Notes: generated by a model not told the origin, from the letters alone. DNA of 33,096 nt from Terriglobia bacterium (GCA_030041095.1 JASHON010000042.1:1-33096), one strand, 5' to 3'. Shown: positions 1,393 to 16,215, counted from the stretch's first letter. Program-made: numbers and translations.

Positions 1393-1537
1393 AGTGCAAA
1401 CCAAGAGGTTCGAGTATTCTTCTTAATACGACAAAATCGCAATTACGGGACTACAAATGACATCATCTTCGGCCGCGAGACGCGGATGAGCAAGGCAAAG
1501 AAACAAAGCTATGGGTAAAGAAGCCGCAAGGTTAGCA

Positions 1538-1646
1538 GGGCTTCCTTTGGCGTCTCTTTTTGGCGAAGGAGCCGCAAGGAAGCCCCGGATCGACAACCCA
1601 AAGGCTGACGACTGGTTTGCAGTATAGAGGAAGTCTGGGCAGGGTT
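1538..1646 (+). promoter_or_regulatory. Structured leader element, copy A (distal, partly decayed)
   Basis: The P1 helix is a perfect 10 bp: GGGCTTCCTT at 1538-1547 with AAGGAAGCCC at 1576-1585. It encloses a conserved GTCTCTTTTTGGC segment with an inner hairpin GGC-GAAGGA-GCC (1562-1573). The conserved GATCGACAACCC follows at 1588-1599, then GGCTGAC at 1603. Its P2 partner is decayed, but the outer AACCC/GGGTT pair (1595-1599 with 1642-1646) survives. The element lies about 290 nt before the first TonB receptor, upstream of copy B. It matches no riboswitch class that I recognise. Confidence 0.6.
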
Positions 1647-1933: not shown

Positions 1934-4900
1934 TTGGCTCAGAATCATTTCAATCCCTCTAAAACCGTCTCCCCGACAATTGCGAGGTCCATGCACGTAG
2001 CCTGGGCGCTCGCAGCTTTGTTCTCGACCGCTCTCCTTTTCAGGGCGCCTGTTACCGTCTGGGCGGGAGTTGGCGGCAGCATTTCCGGAATGGTCACTGA
2101 CCCGAGCGGCGCCGTCGTGCCTGAGGCCATTGTCGCCGTTCGCAACGTTGAGACCGGCATCGAGCGGAGCACCGTTACCAATCGGGAAGGGTTCTATGCC
2201 TTCACCACGCTGCCGAGCGGCGATTACAACATCGAGATCAATCACCCGGGATTCGAGCCTTACCAGCGAACCGGGCTGATCATCGGCGCCAATACGGCGC
2301 TGCGTGTGGACGCCGGATTGACCATTGGCCCGCAGAAGAAATCCATTGTTGTCTCCGAAGCCGGCGTTCACGTGCAAACCTCCAGCACCCAGATGGGCGA
2401 CCTCATCACCGGCGCCACGATGACGGCTGTGCCTTTGAATGGCCGCAGCTATACGGATCTGCTGGCCCTGCAGCCGGGCGTCGCTCCGATCACCAGCCTC
2501 ACTTCGGAATCGATCCAGGACGTAGGCGCCGCGGCGCTTCCTCCTTCCGGGGACTTGAACTCCGGCAATCTCTCCATCAGTGGCGAGCGGGAAGACGCCA
2601 ATGGCTTTATGGTGAACGGAAGCGACGTTGAAGAAGACGTCAACATGGGCGCAGCGATCATTCCCAATCTCGATTCCATCGCGGAATTTCGCATCCTCAC
2701 CAGTGACTTCGATGCTGAATACGGAAACTATAGCGGCGGTCAAGTGAACGTGGTGACGAAGTCCGGCACTAACCAGTTTCATGGCGACGCGTTTGAATTC
2801 CTGCGCAACACAGACTTTGATGCGCGCAACTTCTATTCGCCTGACCGTGGGAGCTTTCAACAGAACCAGTTTGGCGGGACGTTTGGAGGACCGATACGGC
2901 GCAACAAGATTTTCTTCTTCGCTGACTACCAAGGTACCCGCCTCATCCAAGGCGTGGATACAGGACTGATTCCCGTCCCCTCGCTTCAGGACCGGGAAGG
3001 AAATCTCCTGGATGATGCGAGCTTGTTTCAGACGGTGCTGTCGAATGGCCAGGCGGCTCCAACCACGGTCAGCGGGCCCTACTGGGCAAGCCTGCTCTCG
3101 CAGAAGCTCGGCTATCCGGTTAATGCAGGTGAGCCTTATTACACGCCGGGATGCGCCAGCCCGGCAGAGTGCGTTCTTCCCAATGCGGTGATTCCAATGA
3201 GCGCCTGGTCTGCTCCTGCCGAGCGCCTGCTGCAATACATTCCGAAGCCGAACTCTCCTGGCAACAATTTCTCCACCTCCGCCTACAACCAGGATCTTCG
3301 TGATGACAAAGGCGCCCTGCGGCTGGATGCCAGCACGCGCTGGGGCCTGCTCTCGAGCTACTATTTCATGGACAATTACTCCCAGAACGATCCCTACCCT
3401 GTCGCTCAGGGCGGAGCCAGCGTGCCGGGCTTTAATGCTCTGAATCTGGGCCGCGCACAGTTGCTGAACTTGGGTGATACCAAGACACTCGGCCCCAGCG
3501 CAGTGAATGAATTCCACTTCAGCTTTCTTCGTAATGCCAATATTCTGGGCCAGCCGATAGGCGGGGTCGGCGTCAGCCTGGCATCGCAGGGTTTTGTGGT
3601 GGGGCCAGGCACGCCCGGCATTGTCCCACTCTCTCCCCAAACCGAGGGCGTAGAAAACATGGTCTTCAATAACTATTCGATCGGGACGAATACCAACCGG
3701 CTGGCGGACTTCGGAAATACATTCCAGTGGCTGGACAATTTTTCCAAGGTGGCAGGAACTCACACCTTCAAAGCAGGCGCCGAATTCCACTACGACCAAG
3801 TCAATACGCTTCCCGTGGCCCAATTTAATGGTAGTTTTTCTTTCTTCGGAAGTGAAACCGGCCTTGACTTCGCAGACTTTCTTCTCGGGATTCCCAGCCA
3901 GTACAACCAAAGTTATCTTCAATCGTTTTACGGTCGCAATAAATATACTGGATTGTACGGACAGGATAGCTGGCGAGTCACGCACAACCTCACGCTCAAC
4001 TACGGCCTGCGGTGGGATCGGATCGAGCCTTGGTACGAGAAATACAACCAGATTTCGGCGATGGTTCCCGGCGAGCAGTCAGCGGTCTTTCCCGGCGCGC
4101 CGGCCGGCATCGTCTACCCCACGGACCCGGGGATCCCTCGCACGTTAGCTCCTGCCGGCAATCTCGATTTTTCACCACGTCTTGGCCTGGCCTACTCACC
4201 CAGTGTGCAGGGAACCGGTCTGCTCGGCAAACTCTTGGGCGGCCCTGGTAAGACCAGCATACGTGCGGGCTTCGGAACTTTTTACACCGATATCGAAGCC
4301 GTAACCATCGGCGTTCTGGCCGCGAATGCGCCCTATGGCACTACTTACACCAGCCCGGCGCCGCCCCTCTTTGCCACTCCGTTTGTCACGGCCTCAACCG
4401 GTCAAAACCTTGGCCAATACTTTCCCGTCCAGCTCGCGCCGCTCAACTCCTCGGCAAGTCACCCCGATTCCAATATCAACTGGTCGCAATATGAGCCGAT
4501 CAGCGGCATTCCAGCTTATTCTCCCTCGAACAAGATTCCCTCCGCCGACGAATACACGTTTTCGCTGGAACGCCAAATTGGATCCAATACTCTGGTGAGC
4601 GCCTCCTATGTGGGATCCCAGGCCCATCATCTTCTGGTGTTGGTCGAAAACAATCCTGGCAACCCAGCCCTGTGCTTGAGCCTGAGCCAGCCGGGCGACG
4701 TGATGCCCGGCACACCCACGTGCGGTCCGTTTGGTGAAAGCAACGTCTACACTACCGCGTCCGGCCAGGTGATTGACGGTACCCGCGGCCCGTTTGGAGC
4801 CGATTTCGGCAGTAATACCAATCAGGCCACCATCGGGAATTCCAATTACAATGCCCTTGAGGTGAGCCTTCAGCACACCAGTGGACCCCTCGAGCTTTTA

Positions 4901-5557
4901 GTTGGCTATACCTACAGCAAATCTCTCGACCAGTCTTCGAACCTCGGCGAAGAGGTGAACCCTTTGGATTACGGGCTCAGCAAGTCGCTTTCCGCTTTTG
5001 ACATGACGCAGAACTTCGTCGCCAGCTACGATCTTCAACTTCCGATCGCTCATCTCTTCCGCACCCGGAATCGCTGGACGCAAGGCTGGTCACTTTCCGG
5101 GATCACGCGCTTCGGCACCGGTTTTCCGGTGACGCTCTATAACTATGGGGACAACTCGCTTTTAGGCGCCGAGCCGAACGGCGTGAACAACTACGGCGTC
5201 GATGAGCCGGATTACGCGCCGGGTCCGCTCGAGATCAATTCCAATCCACGTAATGGAAAGCCCTGTTTCAACACAGCGCTATTCAGTGAGAATGCCTTAG
5301 GCACACCCGGCACGGCCGCGCGGCGCTTCTTCTACGGTCCGGGGATCAACAACTTCGATCTGGCCCTGCTCAAGAACGTGCGCTTGACGGAATCGAAGTC
5401 TCTTCAGTTCCGGCTGGAAGCGTTTAACGTTTTCAATCATGCGCAGTTTTATGGGCCTGCCGCTGTGGATGGCAACATCAGCAGCAGCACGTTCGGACAA
5501 GTGGTGAGCGCTGCCGCGCCGCGCATCCTTCAGATCGCCGCCAAACTCAATTTCTAA
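1934..5557 (+). CDS. TonB-dependent receptor, Oar-like, with carboxypeptidase-regulatory domain
   Basis: This is a 1207-residue outer-membrane receptor. The TTG at 1934 is preferred as start because GGAGG lies 6 nt before it; an ATG at 1991 has a poorly spaced site. An export signal lies at about residues 20-45. A carboxypeptidase-regulatory-like beta-sandwich follows at about 48-130 (GSISGMVTDPSGAVVPEA). The plug domain follows (PLNGRSYTDLLALQPGV, then KSGTNQFHGDAFEFLRNTDFDARNF in pieces). A long beta-barrel ends in phenylalanine (AAKLNF), as expected for BAM insertion. Oar-like proteins of this size are abundant in Acidobacteriota and usually lack a known substrate. Two leader-element copies precede it. 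The next receptor lies 290 nt downstream. Confidence 0.95.
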   Translation: MAQNHFNPSKTVSPTIARSMHVAWALAALFSTALLFRAPVTVWAGVGGSISGMVTDPSGAVVPEAIVAVRNVETGIERSTVTNREGFYAFTTLPSGDYNIEINHPGFEPYQRTGLIIGANTALRVDAGLTIGPQKKSIVVSEAGVHVQTSSTQMGDLITGATMTAVPLNGRSYTDLLALQPGVAPITSLTSESIQDVGAAALPPSGDLNSGNLSISGEREDANGFMVNGSDVEEDVNMGAAIIPNLDSIAEFRILTSDFDAEYGNYSGGQVNVVTKSGTNQFHGDAFEFLRNTDFDARNFYSPDRGSFQQNQFGGTFGGPIRRNKIFFFADYQGTRLIQGVDTGLIPVPSLQDREGNLLDDASLFQTVLSNGQAAPTTVSGPYWASLLSQKLGYPVNAGEPYYTPGCASPAECVLPNAVIPMSAWSAPAERLLQYIPKPNSPGNNFSTSAYNQDLRDDKGALRLDASTRWGLLSSYYFMDNYSQNDPYPVAQGGASVPGFNALNLGRAQLLNLGDTKTLGPSAVNEFHFSFLRNANILGQPIGGVGVSLASQGFVVGPGTPGIVPLSPQTEGVENMVFNNYSIGTNTNRLADFGNTFQWLDNFSKVAGTHTFKAGAEFHYDQVNTLPVAQFNGSFSFFGSETGLDFADFLLGIPSQYNQSYLQSFYGRNKYTGLYGQDSWRVTHNLTLNYGLRWDRIEPWYEKYNQISAMVPGEQSAVFPGAPAGIVYPTDPGIPRTLAPAGNLDFSPRLGLAYSPSVQGTGLLGKLLGGPGKTSIRAGFGTFYTDIEAVTIGVLAANAPYGTTYTSPAPPLFATPFVTASTGQNLGQYFPVQLAPLNSSASHPDSNINWSQYEPISGIPAYSPSNKIPSADEYTFSLERQIGSNTLVSASYVGSQAHHLLVLVENNPGNPALCLSLSQPGDVMPGTPTCGPFGESNVYTTASGQVIDGTRGPFGADFGSNTNQATIGNSNYNALEVSLQHTSGPLELLVGYTYSKSLDQSSNLGEEVNPLDYGLSKSLSAFDMTQNFVASYDLQLPIAHLFRTRNRWTQGWSLSGITRFGTGFPVTLYNYGDNSLLGAEPNGVNNYGVDEPDYAPGPLEINSNPRNGKPCFNTALFSENALGTPGTAARRFFYGPGINNFDLALLKNVRLTESKSLQFRLEAFNVFNHAQFYGPAAVDGNISSSTFGQVVSAAAPRILQIAAKLNF

Positions 5558-5723
5558 AAAAAGGGAGAGAAAATGTGCATCCTCGTGGCGGGTGGTGGAA
5601 AAGACTGAGGTGCCTCAGGATCCCAGCAACACGAACAGCCCGACGACGTAAAACTTCGGAAGGCAAGGAGAGCTTACTCGGGAAGGTGATTCGAGTGAGT
5701 TAGACAACTAAGGAATTGTGGGA
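5558..5723 (+). other. Intergenic stretch between the two receptors (possible 11-aa micro-ORF)
   Basis: Directly after the receptor stop, GGGAGAG at 5563-5569 precedes ATG 5573, which opens a 12-codon frame ending at 5608 (MCILVAGGGKD). Nothing else supports expression. A short inverted repeat CTGAGGTGCCTCAG (5605-5618) overlaps its end but has no T-tract, so it is not a convincing terminator. The rest, up to leader copy C, shows nothing I recognise. Confidence 0.25.
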
Positions 5724-5824
5724 GGGCTTGCCACGGCGTTTCTTTTGGCAAAGGAGCCGCAAGCAAGCCCGAGATCGACAACCCAAAGGCTGACGACCCA
5801 TTCGCAGTATAGGGGAAGTCAGCC
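5724..5824 (+). promoter_or_regulatory. Structured leader element, copy C, directly before TonB receptor 2
   Basis: P1 is GGGCTTG (5724-5730) with CAAGCCC (5764-5770). The inner hairpin GGC-AAAGGA-GCC is at 5747-5758. GATCGACAACCC is at 5773-5784. P2 is GGCTGAC (5788-5794) with GTCAGCC (5818-5824); against copy B this is a compensatory A-T for G-C change. P2 ends 12 nt before the AAAGG at 5836 that serves the next gene, the same geometry as copy B. The outer AACCC/GGGTT pair is not kept. Confidence 0.65.
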
Positions 5825-5848: not shown

Positions 5849-8137
5849 ATGCGCGGTTGCACCCCGATGCGGCGGATATTTCTCTCCGTATTGCTTAGTT
5901 TTATCTTCAGTCCAATACTCGTTCATTCGCAAAGCAAACTGTATGTGCTTGAAGGCCGTGTGCTTGATCCGCAAGGTCTTCCGATCGCGGAAGCCACATT
6001 AATCCTGCGCGATACTCTCTCCGGGCAAAGCCAACAGCAGCAGACGTCTTCTGACGGCCGCTACTCCTTCCATGTCTTAGAGGCAGGCTTTTACACGCTG
6101 ACAGCGAGCCACAGGGGGTTCTCCGATCAAGTCCGGTTCCTTCAGCTCAAGCCTGAACATCTCCTCATCACCGAAGATATCCGGCTGCTTGTAGCCGGTG
6201 TGCGCCAGGGCGTGACGGTGGTTTCCGGCTCCCGCGTCGAAGAACTACAACAGGATTCACCCTCTCCGGTAACTGTGGTGACACACCAGCAGATTGTTGA
6301 TACCGGCAAGGAAACGGTTGGAGGAGTGCTTTCGGAGGTGCCGGGAGTCGTGACTCGCGACTACGACACCTACGAGCAGGGCTTCGCCGACGAACAAATT
6401 GACGGCATCGATTCGCGGCAAGTGCTGGTGCTTGAGGATGGCCTTCCGATTGTGGGCGCGCGAGGCGTCAACAGCGGCGTGATTAATCTCAACGACCAGC
6501 CCGTCGGCCCCTTGGACCAGATCGAAGTGGCCAAGGGAGCAGGTTCCGCGCTGTATGGGACAGACGCCATCGGCGGGGTGATCAATCTGATTACACGCAA
6601 GCCTGCATCTCCACTTGACGCCGATCTAAATCTCTCCGGGGGTTCGCTTGGAGTCTTTGATGGCCGCGGCAGCGTGGGGTCCAAAGTCAAAAACGGGTGG
6701 GTGCTTGCAGACTTTGAAAGGCATCAGGGGAATAGCTATAGCCTGATTCCGCCCAGCACCACAGGCCCCCAGTACGGCATCTACGACGGCTTTTTCGACG
6801 GAAGCTATGACTTCGGGAAACGGACCTCGTTCGATTTTCGCGCGGGCGGCTATCACGACCATTATGTGGGCCAGAGCGAAACCGAGACCGGCCTGTCCCA
6901 GAGCAACGATACTGCCAGCAACCAGAACTTCGCTCTCACCGGTAACTTTCAGCTTACGCCATCAAGCGTGCTCCAGGTACGGGGCTACATCGCCAACTAC
7001 AACGAAGGTGATTTGACCTTGCCGGTGGGGCCATTGACAGCGTCTCCTGACGTCACGGATTTGGCGACCTTGGGCGAGCGTTACCATCGCATGGATGCAA
7101 CTTGGTCCAAAACCCTGGGAGCCCACCAGTTCCTCCAAGGAGGCTATGAGTGGGTCCAGGATTTATATAAAGGCAATAATCGGCTGCTCGGAGGCGACGC
7201 CGGCCAGCAGATAACAACCAATGACTTGTGGGCTCAGGACCGCATTCAGCTTGCTTCTCCGCTCCTGCTCACCCTGGGAGTCCGCTACCAGCACCATTCT
7301 CTGTACGGCAGCCACACGGTTCCCAAGGTCGGCCTCTCCTACCGCATCACTAGCCATCTTGCTTACCGGGCCTCATTCGGCTACGGTTTCCGCGCTCCCG
7401 ACCTGGGGCAGCTTTATTACGATTTTGCCAACCCGGCTGAGTTCTATCAAGTGATTGGCAATCCCGATCTGCGGCCGGAGACCTCGCGCAGCATCAACAC
7501 GGGGTTCGGCTACCGCCGCTCTCGCTGGAGCGGAAGCCTGAATCTCTACCGAAACGACGTGCACAACCTGATCGACTACGAGTATATCGGCACGCCGGAG
7601 ACGCAATCACAATTGGACGCCATCCTGGAGGAATACAACATCCCTGCGGATTTCGATGTCTCTCTGGACCGAATGATTTACCTCTACGTGAACCTCGACC
7701 GGATTTACACGCAGGGAGCGGAAGTAAGCAGCCAATATGCGCTGACTTCCCGCATTCTCCTGAGAGGAGCCTATACCTATCTTGACGCCTACGACGAAAT
7801 CAACCACACCGAGCTTCCTGACCGTTCCCGCAACCAGGGATTCGCAGAGGTGCGGTACAACAATCCAACGCACGGGTTTACCGCCAATCTGCGGGGAAGC
7901 CTCTTCAGTAGCTGGCTGCTGGATGAGATGGGCGACCGCGCCGCAGGCTACGGAATCTGGAGCCTGTACGGCTCAAAAAAATTAACGCGAGGCGCAAGCT
8001 TTTACGTCGCCATCGACAACCTCTTCAACAGCCGCGACCCTGCACTGCACGACAATCCACCCACCTACAACCGGCCGGATTACGGCCGCACCTTTCGAGT
8101 GGGGATTCGTTATACCTTCTCACGCGGCGAACGCTGA
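5849..8137 (+). CDS. TonB-dependent receptor, BtuB/FyuA-like, with carboxypeptidase-regulatory domain
   Basis: This outer-membrane active-transport receptor has about 762 residues. I chose ATG 5849 because AAAGG lies 8 nt upstream; a GTG at 5840 would sit on top of that site. The signal peptide is RRIFLSVLLSFIFSPILVHSQ. A short carboxypeptidase-regulatory-like domain follows (GRVLDPQGLPIAEATLIL), then a textbook plug: PVTVVTHQQIVDTG, VGGVLSEVPGV, VLVLEDGLPIVG, EVAKGAGSALYGTDAIGGVIN. The barrel closes with FRVGIRYTF plus a five-residue tail. Leader copy C precedes it. A small CxCG protein and an exported CbiX-like protein follow in the same operon, which suggests a metal complex or corrinoid-like substrate. 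The substrate is inferred from context only. Confidence 0.95.
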   Translation: MRGCTPMRRIFLSVLLSFIFSPILVHSQSKLYVLEGRVLDPQGLPIAEATLILRDTLSGQSQQQQTSSDGRYSFHVLEAGFYTLTASHRGFSDQVRFLQLKPEHLLITEDIRLLVAGVRQGVTVVSGSRVEELQQDSPSPVTVVTHQQIVDTGKETVGGVLSEVPGVVTRDYDTYEQGFADEQIDGIDSRQVLVLEDGLPIVGARGVNSGVINLNDQPVGPLDQIEVAKGAGSALYGTDAIGGVINLITRKPASPLDADLNLSGGSLGVFDGRGSVGSKVKNGWVLADFERHQGNSYSLIPPSTTGPQYGIYDGFFDGSYDFGKRTSFDFRAGGYHDHYVGQSETETGLSQSNDTASNQNFALTGNFQLTPSSVLQVRGYIANYNEGDLTLPVGPLTASPDVTDLATLGERYHRMDATWSKTLGAHQFLQGGYEWVQDLYKGNNRLLGGDAGQQITTNDLWAQDRIQLASPLLLTLGVRYQHHSLYGSHTVPKVGLSYRITSHLAYRASFGYGFRAPDLGQLYYDFANPAEFYQVIGNPDLRPETSRSINTGFGYRRSRWSGSLNLYRNDVHNLIDYEYIGTPETQSQLDAILEEYNIPADFDVSLDRMIYLYVNLDRIYTQGAEVSSQYALTSRILLRGAYTYLDAYDEINHTELPDRSRNQGFAEVRYNNPTHGFTANLRGSLFSSWLLDEMGDRAAGYGIWSLYGSKKLTRGASFYVAIDNLFNSRDPALHDNPPTYNRPDYGRTFRVGIRYTFSRGER

Positions 8138-8154
8138 CTCAGGAGAAAGCGTGC

Positions 8155-8415
8155 ATGAAGCCGAAGTCTGAACTTACGCCGGAGATCCGGCCAGAATCAA
8201 GAAGGGTCCTTGCGAACTGTGAAGGGCTGGGGCACGTGTGCGAATGCGGCGCCGTCCATCTGGTGCTGGGCGCGGTGAGCCTCAGCTTCTCGCGCCAATC
8301 ATTCATTCAGGCGGCCGAACTTATGATGAGTGCGGCCAGACAGTTGATGCACCCTTCTACAAGGGCCGGAATTCGAAAGGAAAGCCCAACTGGCAGTGGC
8401 GAAATAATTCATTGA
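8155..8415 (+). CDS. Small conserved-type protein with CxCG-x2-H metal-site motif
   Basis: 86 residues; ATG 8155 follows AGGAGA by 8 nt, 17 nt after the receptor stop. The middle reads GLGHVCECGAVHLVLGAVSLSFSRQSFIQAAELM: His27, Cys29, Cys31 and His35 could form one metal site, followed by a strand-helix unit. Similar short 'CxCG..HL.LG..SL' proteins occur in bacteria, but I know of no assigned function. There is no signal peptide, so it is probably cytoplasmic. The tail after about residue 68 is low-complexity. It lies between the receptor and the exported CbiX-like gene (14 nt before the latter), so a role in metal handling is plausible but unproven. Confidence 0.65.
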   Translation: MKPKSELTPEIRPESRRVLANCEGLGHVCECGAVHLVLGAVSLSFSRQSFIQAAELMMSAARQLMHPSTRAGIRKESPTGSGEIIH

Positions 8416-8429
8416 AACGGAGACGCAGA

Positions 8430-9521
8430 ATGAAAACCCTTCTTTCGAAATCTATTATCGTTGGCTTACTGGCCACCCTGGCGGGGCTCACGCCAGAGTT
8501 TGCCACAATTTCGAGTTCCTCAGGCGCACAAGCGGCCAGCGGCATTCTCCTGCTGGCCCACGGCGGCAGCAAAAAGAAATGGAACAAGGACGTGGATGCG
8601 CTGGCAGCACAGGTCAGAAAAACCATGCCGGTGCAGGTGGCATTCGGAATGGCGGACAAGATAACCCTGCAGGCCGCCATCGACCGCCTCACTCAACAAG
8701 GCGTACGAGAGATTGTAGCCGTGCCGCTGTTTATTTCCTCGCATAGTTCGTTGATCGAATGCGAGCGTTATCTGCTGGGCCTGCGCGCCAAGGCTCCGGC
8801 GGACTTGGCGATGTTTGCCGGGATGCACCACCATTCAGTGGGTCATATGGGAATGAGTTCCGATGACCCCGCTGCAGATCTGACGACGCCGGTTAAATGT
8901 CCGGTCCCGATCCATATGACCTCGGCGATTGACCATAGCCCGCTTGTAGCCCAAATTTTGCTCTCCCGAGCCGAACGCCTGAGCAAGAATCCCAGGCGCG
9001 AGACAGTTGTCCTCGTGGCGCATGGCCCGGACTCAGACGAAGAGAATCAGAAATGGCTGGTGGACATGAGCATCCTTGCGGACACGATGCGGAGAAGTAG
9101 TCAGTTCAAGCGCATCGAAGCCCTGACGCTTCGAGACGATGCCCCGGAGCCGATCCGCTCCCGAGCCACTGCCCAACTGCGAGCCACGGTGGAGCGCGCT
9201 GACCGGCAAGACAATCGGGTCCTGGTAGTGCCTCTGTTGATTTCCTACGGCGGCATTGAAAAGGGCATTAAAAAGCGACTGGCAGGCCTTAAATACGTGA
9301 TGAGCCGCCAAGGGTTGCTGCCGGACGCGCGCATGGCCGAATGGGTCCTGCAACAAGCGCAGGGCAGCCTGAATTCCACTTCACAGCCTGAGCGAAGACG
9401 GTCCTCTGTTCAACGATCCGACGTGCGCCCCGAGCTTCAGCAGCGCGGTCGCCTCGTGCTCATGCGCCGTTCGTCAGGGCTGGCAGAGATCCCGGCCCGC
9501 AGCCCGCAATTGATCCCATAA
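8430..9521 (+). CDS. cbiX: Exported two-domain CbiX/SirB-like chelatase-family protein
   Basis: 363 residues from ATG 8430, with CGGAGA 6 nt upstream; a longer open frame exists but would overlap the preceding gene. Residues 1-36 form a signal peptide ending AQAA. Two CbiX-type repeats follow, opening with ILLLAHGG (His44) and VVLVAHGP (His198), the histidines that bind metal in cobaltochelatases. PLFISSHSS (His105) and a His/Met-rich loop, MHHHSVGHMGM (132-142), add possible ligands. Known CbiX/SirB enzymes insert Co or Fe into sirohydrochlorin in the cytoplasm, so an export signal is odd and argues for periplasmic metal or tetrapyrrole handling. The last 50 or so residues are disordered and basic. 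It is the third gene of the receptor operon. Confidence 0.85.
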   Translation: MKTLLSKSIIVGLLATLAGLTPEFATISSSSGAQAASGILLLAHGGSKKKWNKDVDALAAQVRKTMPVQVAFGMADKITLQAAIDRLTQQGVREIVAVPLFISSHSSLIECERYLLGLRAKAPADLAMFAGMHHHSVGHMGMSSDDPAADLTTPVKCPVPIHMTSAIDHSPLVAQILLSRAERLSKNPRRETVVLVAHGPDSDEENQKWLVDMSILADTMRRSSQFKRIEALTLRDDAPEPIRSRATAQLRATVERADRQDNRVLVVPLLISYGGIEKGIKKRLAGLKYVMSRQGLLPDARMAEWVLQQAQGSLNSTSQPERRRSSVQRSDVRPELQQRGRLVLMRRSSGLAEIPARSPQLIP

Positions 9522-9773: not shown

Positions 9774-10718
9774 TCACCATACCGACTCTTGGACGGGGAT
9801 AGTGATTCCGAGCTGTTTGAGCGCTTCAATAAGCTGAAGGTAGACAGGAGCAGGATTCGCCACTGCCGGGGGCAGGTGACCTGCCTGCCTGGCGGCTCTG
9901 GCTAGCCGTTCGAGGATGGCAGGAATCGCCGTCTCGGGAAGCCCCCTTACGCGGGTCCCGCGGTAGTTCGTCAGGATGCACTGGATGGCTTTCGGAAGGC
10001 GCTTGGGATCGACGGTTCCATCCAAACAGAGGTATGGCAGCTTCCAGGTCCGCGGATTCGATGGGTCGCTGACATAAGCGAAGCAGTGGGCGGGAAGCTT
10101 GTATTTCGGGTGAAGGACTCCTTCCTGCACTTGCACTACGTCGGACCCTGAAGTCCCGGCGATCGGCTCTTCGGGTAGCACGCGAAGCGCTGCCTCCTCT
10201 GCAGACTGGCGTGGACGATAAATTCCTTGCACGCTCAACCACCACAAATCGACCGGAGCCTCAGTTTGTTCGAGCGAGACGAAAGCCCGGTCCCGTTTGC
10301 CGCCATGCGCCAGATCGGCCGCATAGAGCATCACACCGTCGCTGACCGCCACGCAACGAACCTGTTGAGCTACGGCATAACCTACAGCTTGATCGAGTGC
10401 CTGGTCTACCGACCGCCGGTGCCATGCCAGCGTGCCCGGCCGCTTCGCTTCTATAATCAGCCAGCGAACGCCAAGGTGAGAAAGAACGATGTCTGCGTGT
10501 TCCACCTGTAGGTTGATGCCGGCAAGCGGCCAGTCGAGCACTCCCGTAAAAAGGTCTTCAAGAATGCTTTCAGTCACTTTTTCCAGGGGCTCTTTCTGGA
10601 AAGGATGAGTGGTAAGTCGCTCCATCCGCCTGCGAAGGAAGTCTGCCCACATTGAGCCAATCCGTTCCACGCAATGCCGATAAACAGCAAGATGCCCGAT
10701 ATCATCCAGCGATCCCAT
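9774..10718 (-). CDS. PD-(D/E)XK-like nuclease-domain protein (HsdR N-terminal-like)
   Basis: 314 residues from ATG 10718, which has GGTGAGG just upstream; a TTG at 10736 is an alternative start. The N-terminal half contains ILEDLFTGVLDW, then HADIVLSHLGVRWLIIEAKRPG. This is a D-x(13)-E-x-K arrangement typical of PD-(D/E)XK nucleases such as the HsdR N-terminal domain, followed by QALDQAVGYAVAQQVRCVAVSDG, where the usual conserved Q/Y helix and strand fall. The C-terminal half is not recognised. No helicase is present, so it is not a complete type I HsdR. It follows the restriction gene in the same direction after a gap of about 215 nt and may belong to the same defence locus. Confidence 0.65.
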   Translation of the reverse strand: MGSLDDIGHLAVYRHCVERIGSMWADFLRRRMERLTTHPFQKEPLEKVTESILEDLFTGVLDWPLAGINLQVEHADIVLSHLGVRWLIIEAKRPGTLAWHRRSVDQALDQAVGYAVAQQVRCVAVSDGVMLYAADLAHGGKRDRAFVSLEQTEAPVDLWWLSVQGIYRPRQSAEEAALRVLPEEPIAGTSGSDVVQVQEGVLHPKYKLPAHCFAYVSDPSNPRTWKLPYLCLDGTVDPKRLPKAIQCILTNYRGTRVRGLPETAIPAILERLARAARQAGHLPPAVANPAPVYLQLIEALKQLGITIPVQESVW

Positions 10719-10933
10719 GCCCGCCTCACCGTACAAACGACAAAATCATAATGCGGCCAGAGCGGTATTTCAATGTATGGGGAGGACAGGCCCAGCGTTG
10801 TGAGCCAAGCACTTTCTGGCGTCATCAGTCCTGACGGGAATGGCGTTCGACAGGCTCAACCACCCGCAATCTCACCCGTGCCCCGTGTATCTTGAAGGGC
10901 CAGCAACCGCTCATAGCCGGCAATCTCGGGCGA

Positions 10934-13978: not shown

Positions 13979-13999
13979 CTTTTTCAGCAACCTGTTAAA
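13979..13999. repeat. Solitary terminal inverted repeat of the MITE family
   Basis: GCTTTTTCAGCAACCTGTTA matches the right-hand terminal repeat of the type 1 and 2 elements (compare GCGTTTTTCAGCATCCTGTTA at the end of the copy at 22195-22332). No element body is attached. It supplies the TAA (13997-13995, minus) that ends the Nramp-like gene, so an insertion or excision here probably reset the C-terminus. Confidence 0.55.
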
Positions 14000-15341
14000 T
14001 TCCGCCCTGCCTTCCTCCGGGGAAAAGGTTCGGGGCAACAACTTGTGCCGCCAGGACCAGAGAGAGGGCAAACAGGATGATGATCATCATCCAGTTCACC
14101 ACGTTATTCCAACGCTTGTTCGCATACTTCTCACCCAGGAGCTCCTTGTCGTTCAGAAGAAGCTGAAGAAAAATGATTGCCGGGGGCAGGATGATGCCGG
14201 CTAGTACCTGAACGCTCAGGATGATCAACTGTAACGGCGCGCGAGGGATCAAGACAATTGCTGCCGTCGCCGCAACGCACAAGACATAAATGCCGTAGAA
14301 ACCCGGTGCTTGCTTCACTTTCAGTTGCAAGCTGTGCGGCCAGCCTTTGACCTCGCCGTATGCCCACGAGCTCGACAGTGAGATGGCAGTGGAGCCGAGA
14401 ATCGCCGCATTAATCATCAGGATCAGAATTCCCGCGCGGATCCAGGGTCCCGTCAGGTGCGCCATCTCGTGGGCCATCTGCGCCGGATCGCGGAACGGGA
14501 TTCCGTGCGCGAGTGCGTAGTTGCCCGCAATCATCATGCAGCCAGCCACCACAATGGTGAAGCAAGCTCCTAACAGGGTGTCCACCTGAGCCCATTTCAC
14601 GTCCGAAGAGCGCAGCCGCTTGTCAGCAATGCAGCTCTGCTGGAAGAAGAGCTGCCAGGGGGCGATCGTCGTCCCAACGATGGCAATCACCAGAAACACC
14701 AGATTGGGCGTCAAGCCCCCCGCGGGCATTGTGGGAATGAGCGTGTTATGTACAATCTCGCTGACAGGAGGCCGCAGCAGTAGCGCAATCGCGATCCAGG
14801 CGGCATCGAGCAGGCACAAGGCCACAACAACCCGCTCCCATCGGCGGTAACTCCCCGTGAGCACGATCGCCATAAGGCCCGCGGCGGCCAGGAATACGCC
14901 AAGCTGCGGTGGAACGGCGAGCTGCCGCGTAGCCAGATCGACCGCCGCAAACTCGGTTACTAGAGTCAGAAAATTCACTAACTGCAGGTCCAGCAGGGAA
15001 AACAAGCCCCACCAGCGGCCGAACCGCCGGTAGATCATGGCGGCGTGCCCTTTGCCGGTGGCGATGCCCAACCGAACGACCATCTCCTGGATGAAGTAGG
15101 TGCAGGGCAACAAGAACAGCAGCAGCCATAGGAGGTGCGTTCCGTACTGTGCACCCGCCTGGACGTAAGTGGAGACGGCGCCCGCGTCGTTGTCCGCCTC
15201 CATCACGATGAGCCCCGGACCGGAAACCATCAGGAACGTCAGCAGATGGTGCGCCCACTTCGATCGCACTACCCTTCCGCCCCTTGGAACGACCGGGACC
15301 TTAATCCCCGCAGTCGCTTCCGGAATGAACAGCTTCGCCAT
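13995..15341 (-). CDS. Nramp-related metal transporter, probably magnesium (NrmT-like)
   Basis: 448 residues from ATG 15341 with AAGGAGG upstream, and about eleven membrane helices. The helix-1 metal motif reads MEADNDAGAVSTY (Asp50-Asn51-Asp52-Ala53-Gly54) in place of the canonical DPGN of Mn/Fe Nramps. Helix 6 reads TTIAPWQLFFQQS without the usual MPH methionine. These changes characterise Nramp-related magnesium transporters (NRMT/NrmT), in which loss of the methionine removes the preference for soft metals. The M-box riboswitch and terminator upstream independently point to Mg2+. The stop codon lies inside a MITE-end remnant, so the last residues (GGRQGGI) may not be ancestral. A small membrane protein gene follows. 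Confidence 0.88.
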   Translation of the reverse strand: MAKLFIPEATAGIKVPVVPRGGRVVRSKWAHHLLTFLMVSGPGLIVMEADNDAGAVSTYVQAGAQYGTHLLWLLLFLLPCTYFIQEMVVRLGIATGKGHAAMIYRRFGRWWGLFSLLDLQLVNFLTLVTEFAAVDLATRQLAVPPQLGVFLAAAGLMAIVLTGSYRRWERVVVALCLLDAAWIAIALLLRPPVSEIVHNTLIPTMPAGGLTPNLVFLVIAIVGTTIAPWQLFFQQSCIADKRLRSSDVKWAQVDTLLGACFTIVVAGCMMIAGNYALAHGIPFRDPAQMAHEMAHLTGPWIRAGILILMINAAILGSTAISLSSSWAYGEVKGWPHSLQLKVKQAPGFYGIYVLCVAATAAIVLIPRAPLQLIILSVQVLAGIILPPAIIFLQLLLNDKELLGEKYANKRWNNVVNWMMIIILFALSLVLAAQVVAPNLFPGGRQGGI

Positions 15342-15694: not shown

Positions 15695-15744
15695 ACTCTG
15701 GGAATCGACCGCAATGGCCGTGGCCTATGCGGAACCGGATATCC

Positions 15745-15913
15745 CCACTCGCCCAAGCTTTAGCACCGCGCGCCGTAAGATCCCGCCACTCGGGATCAGC
15801 CACGTTAGACAAACCCTTAATCCGGGAGTGCCTGTTCTACCGCTGTCGCCAGCATCTTTGGACGCCGGCTGGGCAGTGGCCTATATGCCGCGCGGACGCC
15901 TCGCCTACCGAGG
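15745..15913 (-). ncRNA. M-box (ykoK) magnesium riboswitch
   Basis: Read on the minus strand, the segment opens CCTCGGTAGGCGAGGC, then CATATAGGCCACTGCCCAG, GCGTCCAAAGATGCTGGC, a GGTAGAACAG segment, ATTAAGG, and near the end GGTGCTAAAGCTTGGGCGAG. These match the M-box (RF00380) blocks in order: GUUAGGUGAGGCUCC, AUAGGCCACUGCCC, the ACGUCNAAAGACGC stem, GGGUNAACAG, and GUGCUAAAGCUC. The outer CCTCG/CGAG helix closes. The class senses Mg2+ and turns off Mg2+ uptake genes. The gene it serves is the Nramp-like transporter. Confidence 0.93.
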
Positions 15914-16215
15914 ATCCGTTTTTTTGATGCACGACTCGCTTCGCCAATCGTGTCATCTCCACCTTTTTACGCCTTCCTTCCACAGCCCGTCAAGAAAAAA
16001 CTTCGATTGGCAGGCTGGATGCATTTCCGCGCCTAACGGTCTTCTCTAGACGTTGCTGGAGAGCAGCCTTCGTGGAAGTTTCAGAGGTCCTGATGCGTGC
16101 GCCGATGTAGGATACGGGCGAATGGCTTTGAGCGCGAATCCGCCCGCGGGCAGTGAACAGCGGAGTGCCGTGTCCAGTTGATCCCCGCCTGCTTCAGCGT
16201 GAAGCTCTGCCCGGT
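15914..16215. other. Intergenic region upstream of the M-box
   Basis: This separates the oxidoreductase stop from the M-box and should hold the transporter promoter on the minus strand. I see no convincing -35/-10 pair. Plus-strand TTTTTTT at 15919 is adjacent to the aptamer base. There is no coding support. Confidence 0.4.

Follow-up and report, generated by a model that had tools for sequence, protein, structure and literature searches.

The operon described here encodes a TonB-dependent receptor (TBDT), a micro-protein and an exported CbiX-type homologue of the class II chelatases, and lies within a 33,096-nt stretch of DNA (hereafter, the window) from a Terriglobia bacterium. The arrangement is real and conserved, and places exported relatives of the class II chelatases in heme and iron uptake, where they are mostly undescribed; no description of the exported CbiX-type family, of its fusions or of its leader was found in the open literature (most subscription papers lie outside such a search). 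We propose, with about even confidence, that the operon is a unit for the uptake of heme (or another iron-tetrapyrrole) with extraction of the iron in the periplasm, in which the CbiX-type protein would be the counterpart of HmuS and of FetB/IhtB.

Layout of the operon, its receptor and its micro-protein

Three co-directional genes occupy the + strand, namely those for the receptor (5849-8137), the micro-protein (8155-8415) and the CbiX homologue (8430-9521), separated by gaps of 17 bp and 14 bp respectively, with GGAG-like ribosome-binding sequences ahead of the micro-protein and CbiX genes; this is the operon that a sequence-only reading had described, and it is present where that reading placed it. 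An Oar-like outer-membrane protein gene (1934-5557, + strand) lies upstream and an opposite-strand gene (9774-10736) downstream. The source genome, acidobacterial to judge from its relatives, is a draft of 4.9 Mb in 207 contigs. The remainder of the window, with gene names read from translations, is mostly taken up by a kdp potassium system and by an NRAMP-like transporter accompanied by an M-box riboswitch.

No cob or siroheme genes occur within the window, and an Rfam search returned no cobalamin riboswitch. The only other CbiX match in the genome, on contig 83, is a short canonical protein (FLD...GKHLSRDLP) that has no signal peptide, and given this separate, unexported CbiX, siroheme and cobalamin synthesis can be explained without the exported protein. 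Homologues of the latter are likewise found outside cob operons, and the earlier view that the operon does not serve cobalamin synthesis is supported.

The receptor reading frame could begin at GTG 5840, ATG 5849 or ATG 5867, and its product contains CarboxypepD_reg (3e-13), Plug (7e-20) and beta-barrel (4e-48) domains; only three Plug receptors with a strong match are found in the genome. The nearest solved structures are CirA, BtuB and heme/siderophore receptors, and an orthologue adjoins CbiX in survey locus L049 (6e-214). Against the heme-receptor model TIGR01785 the protein scores 152 bits (curated cut-off 316.85), and its top NCBIfam model, TonB-B12, is matched far under its cut-off; the receptor falls beneath all curated cut-offs, and its identification as a true heme or B12 receptor was rejected.

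The micro-protein (86 aa) carries the motif HVCECGAVH, and its conserved core comprises a Cys, a second Cys or Gly region, and a His. The H-x-C-x-C-x3-H pattern pointed out earlier is there as written, but its first His is variable among 13 homologues, in which C29 alone never varies and H35 seldom does. Pfam gave no match for the micro-protein; in a profile comparison it aligned, Cys/His motif included, with the DUF6686 (PF20391) protein of locus L149 (probability 62%, E 7.5e-5), a family that Pfam itself did not match to it. Its gene is often linked to those of cysteine-free S4 paralogues, a separate and strong association. We regard the micro-protein as a probable cytoplasmic accessory, either metal-binding or regulatory, and it is the weakest part of our explanation.

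Export, fold and metal site of the CbiX-type protein

The third gene encodes 363 aa (8430..9521, + strand), assigned to the CbiX family by Pfam (PF01903; 51.1 bits, cut-off 22) and by its predicted fold. Its N-terminus, MKTLLSKSIIVGLLATLAGL...AQA/ASGILLLAHGG, resembles a Sec signal peptide, predicted to span residues ~1-36 (8430..8537) on the basis of a hydrophobic segment and an AQA-A site. The same layout recurs in nearly all homologues, in which a hydrophobic N-terminal stretch is followed by an AxA-like site immediately ahead of the chelatase domain. The signal peptide that the sequence-only reading had called clear is accordingly upheld, and the prediction of export is well supported by these N-termini. 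No Cys of a lipobox lies near the predicted cleavage region.

The predicted structure (pLDDT 85.5) resembles SirB most closely (Z 20.7 over 235 residues), followed by coproporphyrin and protoporphyrin ferrochelatases (Z about 19), the periplasmic CbiK of Desulfovibrio vulgaris (2xvz, Z 17.3) and FetB of P. gingivalis (9b86, Z 17.2). The model thus points to a two-lobed class II chelatase fold, a match that does not by itself establish function. A family sequence profile run against the PDB picks up CbiX/SirB and not CbiK. Cytoplasmic SirB and CbiX-L are the nearest relatives by both fold and sequence family (PF01903), yet the window protein departs from them in its predicted export, in its metal site and in its location outside cob or siroheme operons. 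CbiK-P of D. vulgaris, a periplasmic cobaltochelatase, shares the periplasmic class II fold but is CbiK-type, whereas the window family is CbiX/SirB by sequence profile.

Residue conservation was assessed across 52 sequences from Acidobacteriota, Bacteroidota, Planctomycetota, Elusimicrobia, Marinimicrobia and Pseudomonadota. Invariant in all 52 are H44 (8559..8561), W51, M74 (8649..8651), H198 (9021..9023), W209 and E277 (9258..9260). The metal site of SirB/CfbA-type enzymes consists of His-Glu-His (in SirB, His10/Glu43/His76; PMC11301274). When aligned on the solved CfbA (6m25), H44 coincides with the ligand His9 (SirB His10) and Met74 replaces the ligand Glu42 (SirB Glu43), while H105 of the LFISSHS motif (8742..8744; kept in 41/52) lies two residues before the position of CfbA His75 and SirB His76. 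The canonical site is thus incomplete throughout the alignment: the first His is kept, the Glu is a Met in 52/52 and the second His has shifted position, and catalysis may have been lost as a result. The earlier description of two chelatase repeats with both key histidines therefore stands in part, H44 (in the N-terminal repeat) and H198 (the first His of the second repeat) being invariant; H105, the second His of the N-terminal repeat, is off-position and incompletely conserved, and the C-terminal repeat has H198 as its only key His. The His/Met-rich loop noted alongside them, HHHSVGHMGMS (8826..8858), is real, in that 41/52 homologues carry at least four His plus Met residues there, and is modelled with low confidence.

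Gene neighbours, fusions and regulatory elements

Of 396 acidobacterial genomes, 41 have an exported homologue, and further ones come from Bacteroidota, Planctomycetota, Pseudomonadota and other groups, the named loci with related proteins being mainly acidobacterial. Genes in the survey loci, GC-rich ones included, were called with a codon-usage caller that forced homology hits. Among 80 named loci, a TBDT lies on the same strand within 700 bases of CbiX in 29 (background about 6%), the micro-protein adjoins the TBDT and/or CbiX in 17, and both partners are present in 14. Within two same-strand genes, a TBDT accompanies 24/75 CbiX genes as compared with 15/262 control genes on the same contigs (Fisher p 1.5e-8). 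In roughly half of the loci, CbiX adjoins no TBDT and no other obvious iron gene.

The operon of Granulicella rosea (L049/L112) runs S4 paralogue, TBDT, micro-protein, CbiX, FTR1 and siderophore-interacting reductase; L058/L086 have TBDT, micro-protein and CbiX, and comparable arrangements are found in L088, L091, L097, L099, L111, L116, L128 and L134. In three Bacteroidota loci HmuY, above its Pfam cut-off, stands beside CbiX: CbiX-TBDT-HmuY in Fulvivirga (L139), TBDT-HmuY-CbiX in Fodinibius (L147), and HmuY-CbiX-TBDT-HmuY-DUF6686 in L149. Elsewhere CbiX and two TBDTs follow genes for a binding protein, a permease and an ATPase that scores above the heme-transport equivalog cut-off (L122); FeoB follows TBDT-CbiX (L109); and TBDT-PepSY-PepSY-CbiX stands opposite a divergent iron-dependent repressor (L137). 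In five genomes of five families (L060, L061, L068, L071 and L072), CbiX and TBDT form a single reading frame of 910-1030 residues without stops; Pfam, applied to two of these fusions, finds CbiX, Plug and barrel in both, and the micro-protein gene lies directly 3' of the fusion in L061 and L072. The N-termini of receptors face the periplasm, so that is where a fused chelatase would be expected to act.

A Pyrinomonadaceae-and-kin clade is set apart by a MerR gene and a YHS-domain heavy-metal P-type ATPase gene upstream of CbiX (six loci). In the three aligned sequences of this clade H105 is replaced, mostly by Asn, whereas all but one of the TBDT-linked proteins keep His. Function in the clade has probably diverged, and for the window we rely on the receptor-linked members.

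In the 5' region of the operon (5711..5802, + strand) lies a conserved leader hairpin with a TTTCTTTTGGCAAAGG loop and a 3' GAGATCGACAAC, scored at 52.9 bits by covariance model R1, in whose training set the window sequence is included. Its general form has the loop TCTTTTGGC(G/A)AAG and the tail GATCGACAAC. In the window's genome, one copy precedes the window TBDT, two the Oar-like gene, and a further, independent one an FTR1 permease gene adjoining a FUR-family gene; in Granulicella operons the hairpin precedes both S4 and TBDT. It has no match in Rfam. RNAalifold yields a short consensus stem only, as the leader alignment is imperfect; folded singly, most copies are predicted to form a hairpin about the conserved loop. 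Upstream of S4, TBDT, micro-protein, CbiX and fusion genes stands a palindrome, GACY-N5-RGTC, whose flanks are conserved, and the majority of its 36 sites in 1.6 Mb belong to such genes; we take it to resemble an IscR type-1 site. No such operator was found in the window's own genome, where it is the leader hairpin, in place of the palindrome, that links the operon to iron.

The sequence-only reading had proposed uptake of a metal or tetrapyrrole, and the neighbours (HmuY, a heme ABC ATPase, FTR1, FeoB, the siderophore-interacting protein and Rrf2-like operators) narrow this to heme or iron. Its appeal to gene neighbourhoods is also answered, as the homologues are exported by prediction and stand outside cob operons, and the genes are found together in distantly related lineages.

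Proposed function and competing readings

As its relatives lie in heme and iron uptake operons and are in some cases fused to the receptor, a probable role of the exported protein is to remove iron from imported heme, or to carry it, outside the cytoplasm. We infer the ligand, the catalysis and the route of the iron as follows. The receptor, judging from its family, would bring a metalloporphyrin into the periplasm, where the CbiX-type protein may bind it between its two lobes and pull the iron out in what would amount to a reverse ferrochelatase reaction. H44, H198, H105 and Met74 would surround the metal, with the His/Met loop as a putative landing place once it is freed. The iron could then cross the inner membrane through FTR1, as suggested by the Granulicella operon and the shared leader hairpin, with FeoB or a heme ABC transporter presumably in its stead in some relatives; in the fused forms, the receptor would carry the chelatase domain on its periplasmic end. 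Weighing against this reading are the loci that lack telling neighbours, the clade linked to a metal P-type ATPase, the altered metal site, the low score of the receptor with heme-receptor models and the missing IscR-like operator in the window's genome.

There are precedents for this proposal. The iht locus of Porphyromonas gingivalis encodes the TBDT IhtA, the exported CbiK-like IhtB and the ABC components IhtCDE (PMC10913741), and IhtB/FetB has been proposed to remove heme iron (PMC10913741, PMC13402209); these precedents are themselves partly hypothetical. FetB/IhtB resembles the window protein in combining export with a class II chelatase fold and in being encoded alongside a TonB receptor in a heme/iron uptake context (PMC10913741), but it is described as a CbiK-like lipoprotein, whereas the window protein is CbiX/SirB-type by sequence and lacks a lipobox, and its family adds the His/Met loop, the Met for Glu, the micro-protein partner and, in some genomes, the receptor fusion. 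HmuS of Bacteroides, a class I fold, is reported to extract heme iron in the periplasm, together with hmu-type partners such as HmuY and a TBDT (PMC12583661), and periplasmic iron removal followed by Feo import has been shown in B. fragilis (PMC6460266); the role proposed here, removal followed by Feo or FTR import, is alike. The Met-rich insertion of HmuS, absent from biosynthetic class I chelatases, loosely parallels the His/Met loop (PMC12583661). We claim no homology between the large, membrane-anchored, CobN-like HmuS (about 1450 aa) and the 363-aa class II window protein.

The main rival, which we consider possible though unlikely, is that the protein carries heme or porphyrin in the periplasm without catalysis: its chelatase fold would serve only to bind heme at the receptor exit and hand it over, for instance to a transporter of the HmuTUV type. 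The lost Glu and displaced second His would suit such a carrier, as would the linkage to HmuTUV in L122 and to HmuY elsewhere, and a title cited in PMC10320005 and PMC11301274 calls the periplasmic CbiK of D. vulgaris heme-binding. Against this, FTR1 and FeoB of other operons import free iron and not heme, and H44, H198, W51, W209 and E277 are kept in 52/52 sequences, as is expected of an active site. A zinc-limitation unit, in which the receptor imports a zinc complex that the exported protein and micro-protein handle, seems improbable to us: the neighbours are iron or heme genes, the common operator is like an IscR type-1 site and not a Zur box, and the window genome has one S4 match. Granulicella-type operons do, however, open with a cysteine-free (C-) S4 paralogue, a four-Cys S4 being encoded elsewhere in the genome, and C-/C+ ribosomal protein pairs are classic zinc-starvation genes. 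The CxC/H of the micro-protein further resembles a zinc site, and its strong linkage to C- S4 genes keeps the zinc reading alive at low probability.

Still less credence is given to a periplasmic binding protein for copper or another soft metal, for which one may cite the His/Met loop, Met74 and the six Pyrinomonadaceae-type loci with P-type ATPases; that clade is distinct, as its altered H105 attests. Marginally lower again we rank metal insertion or exchange in an imported porphyrin or corrinoid, whether FetB-like Mn insertion or cobalamin salvage. FetB is reported to produce Mn-protoporphyrin (PMC13402209), and TonB-B12 is the receptor's top, if far sub-threshold, model, but the window's lack of a cobalamin riboswitch and of cob genes, and the iron-transport genes beside the homologues, argue otherwise.

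In its most complete form the preferred reading of periplasmic iron extraction would define a family, so far undescribed, of periplasmic heme de-chelatases of CbiX type in which Met stands in for the ligand Glu, physically coupled and sometimes fused to a TonB receptor and controlled in Acidobacteriota by a likewise undescribed leader RNA common to iron permease genes; to this we attach tentative belief, on balance short of even. How bacteria without heme oxygenase extract heme iron outside the cytoplasm has so far been answered mainly for Bacteroides HmuS. The present family would offer a second, unrelated chelatase fold for heme iron removal, in Acidobacteriota and several other phyla, and its receptor fusions allow a direct test of whether transport and iron removal are physically coupled.

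A leader hairpin in Acidobacteriota

A leader hairpin with a conserved loop (TCTTTTGGCGAAG) and tail (GGAGATCGACAAC) recurs in Acidobacteriota, where the genes lying 3' of it encode TonB-type receptors, S4 paralogues and, in one case, FTR1. Three copies are located in the window (1524-1617, 1798-1891 and 5711-5802), another in the surveyed locus L192 (G000:C196, 3023-3114), and further ones in loci L099, L111, L112, L134, L091 and L075; an Rfam search with the hairpin matched no families. The window also holds an M-box magnesium riboswitch (15737-15919, minus strand), upstream of a gene for an NRAMP-like transporter (13995-15341).

A palindrome upstream of the relatives' genes

In relatives, the palindrome YYGACYNWWWNRGTCRR is observed 5' of the CbiX, TonB-dependent receptor, micro-protein and S4 genes (L045, L061, L091, L099, L112, L113, L123, L125, L133, L134 and L151); it was not found in the window's own genome. 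It resembles a type-1 IscR (Rrf2) operator.

Neighbours of the micro-protein and exported CbiX genes

In several surveyed loci (L049:2996-3670; L074, L075 and L077-L080), the micro-protein gene adjoins a gene for a cysteine-free paralogue of ribosomal protein S4, and a four-Cys S4 is encoded at another place in these genomes. At L089 (2165-3913), two exported CbiX-L units stand in tandem within a single 582-aa ORF. In one set of loci (L042, L044, L046, L090, L092, L094, L095, L096 and L121), the genes upstream of the exported CbiX encode MerR and a metal P-type ATPase with a YHS domain; in the aligned sequences of the set, this CbiX carries Asn or Lys in place of the second chelatase His.
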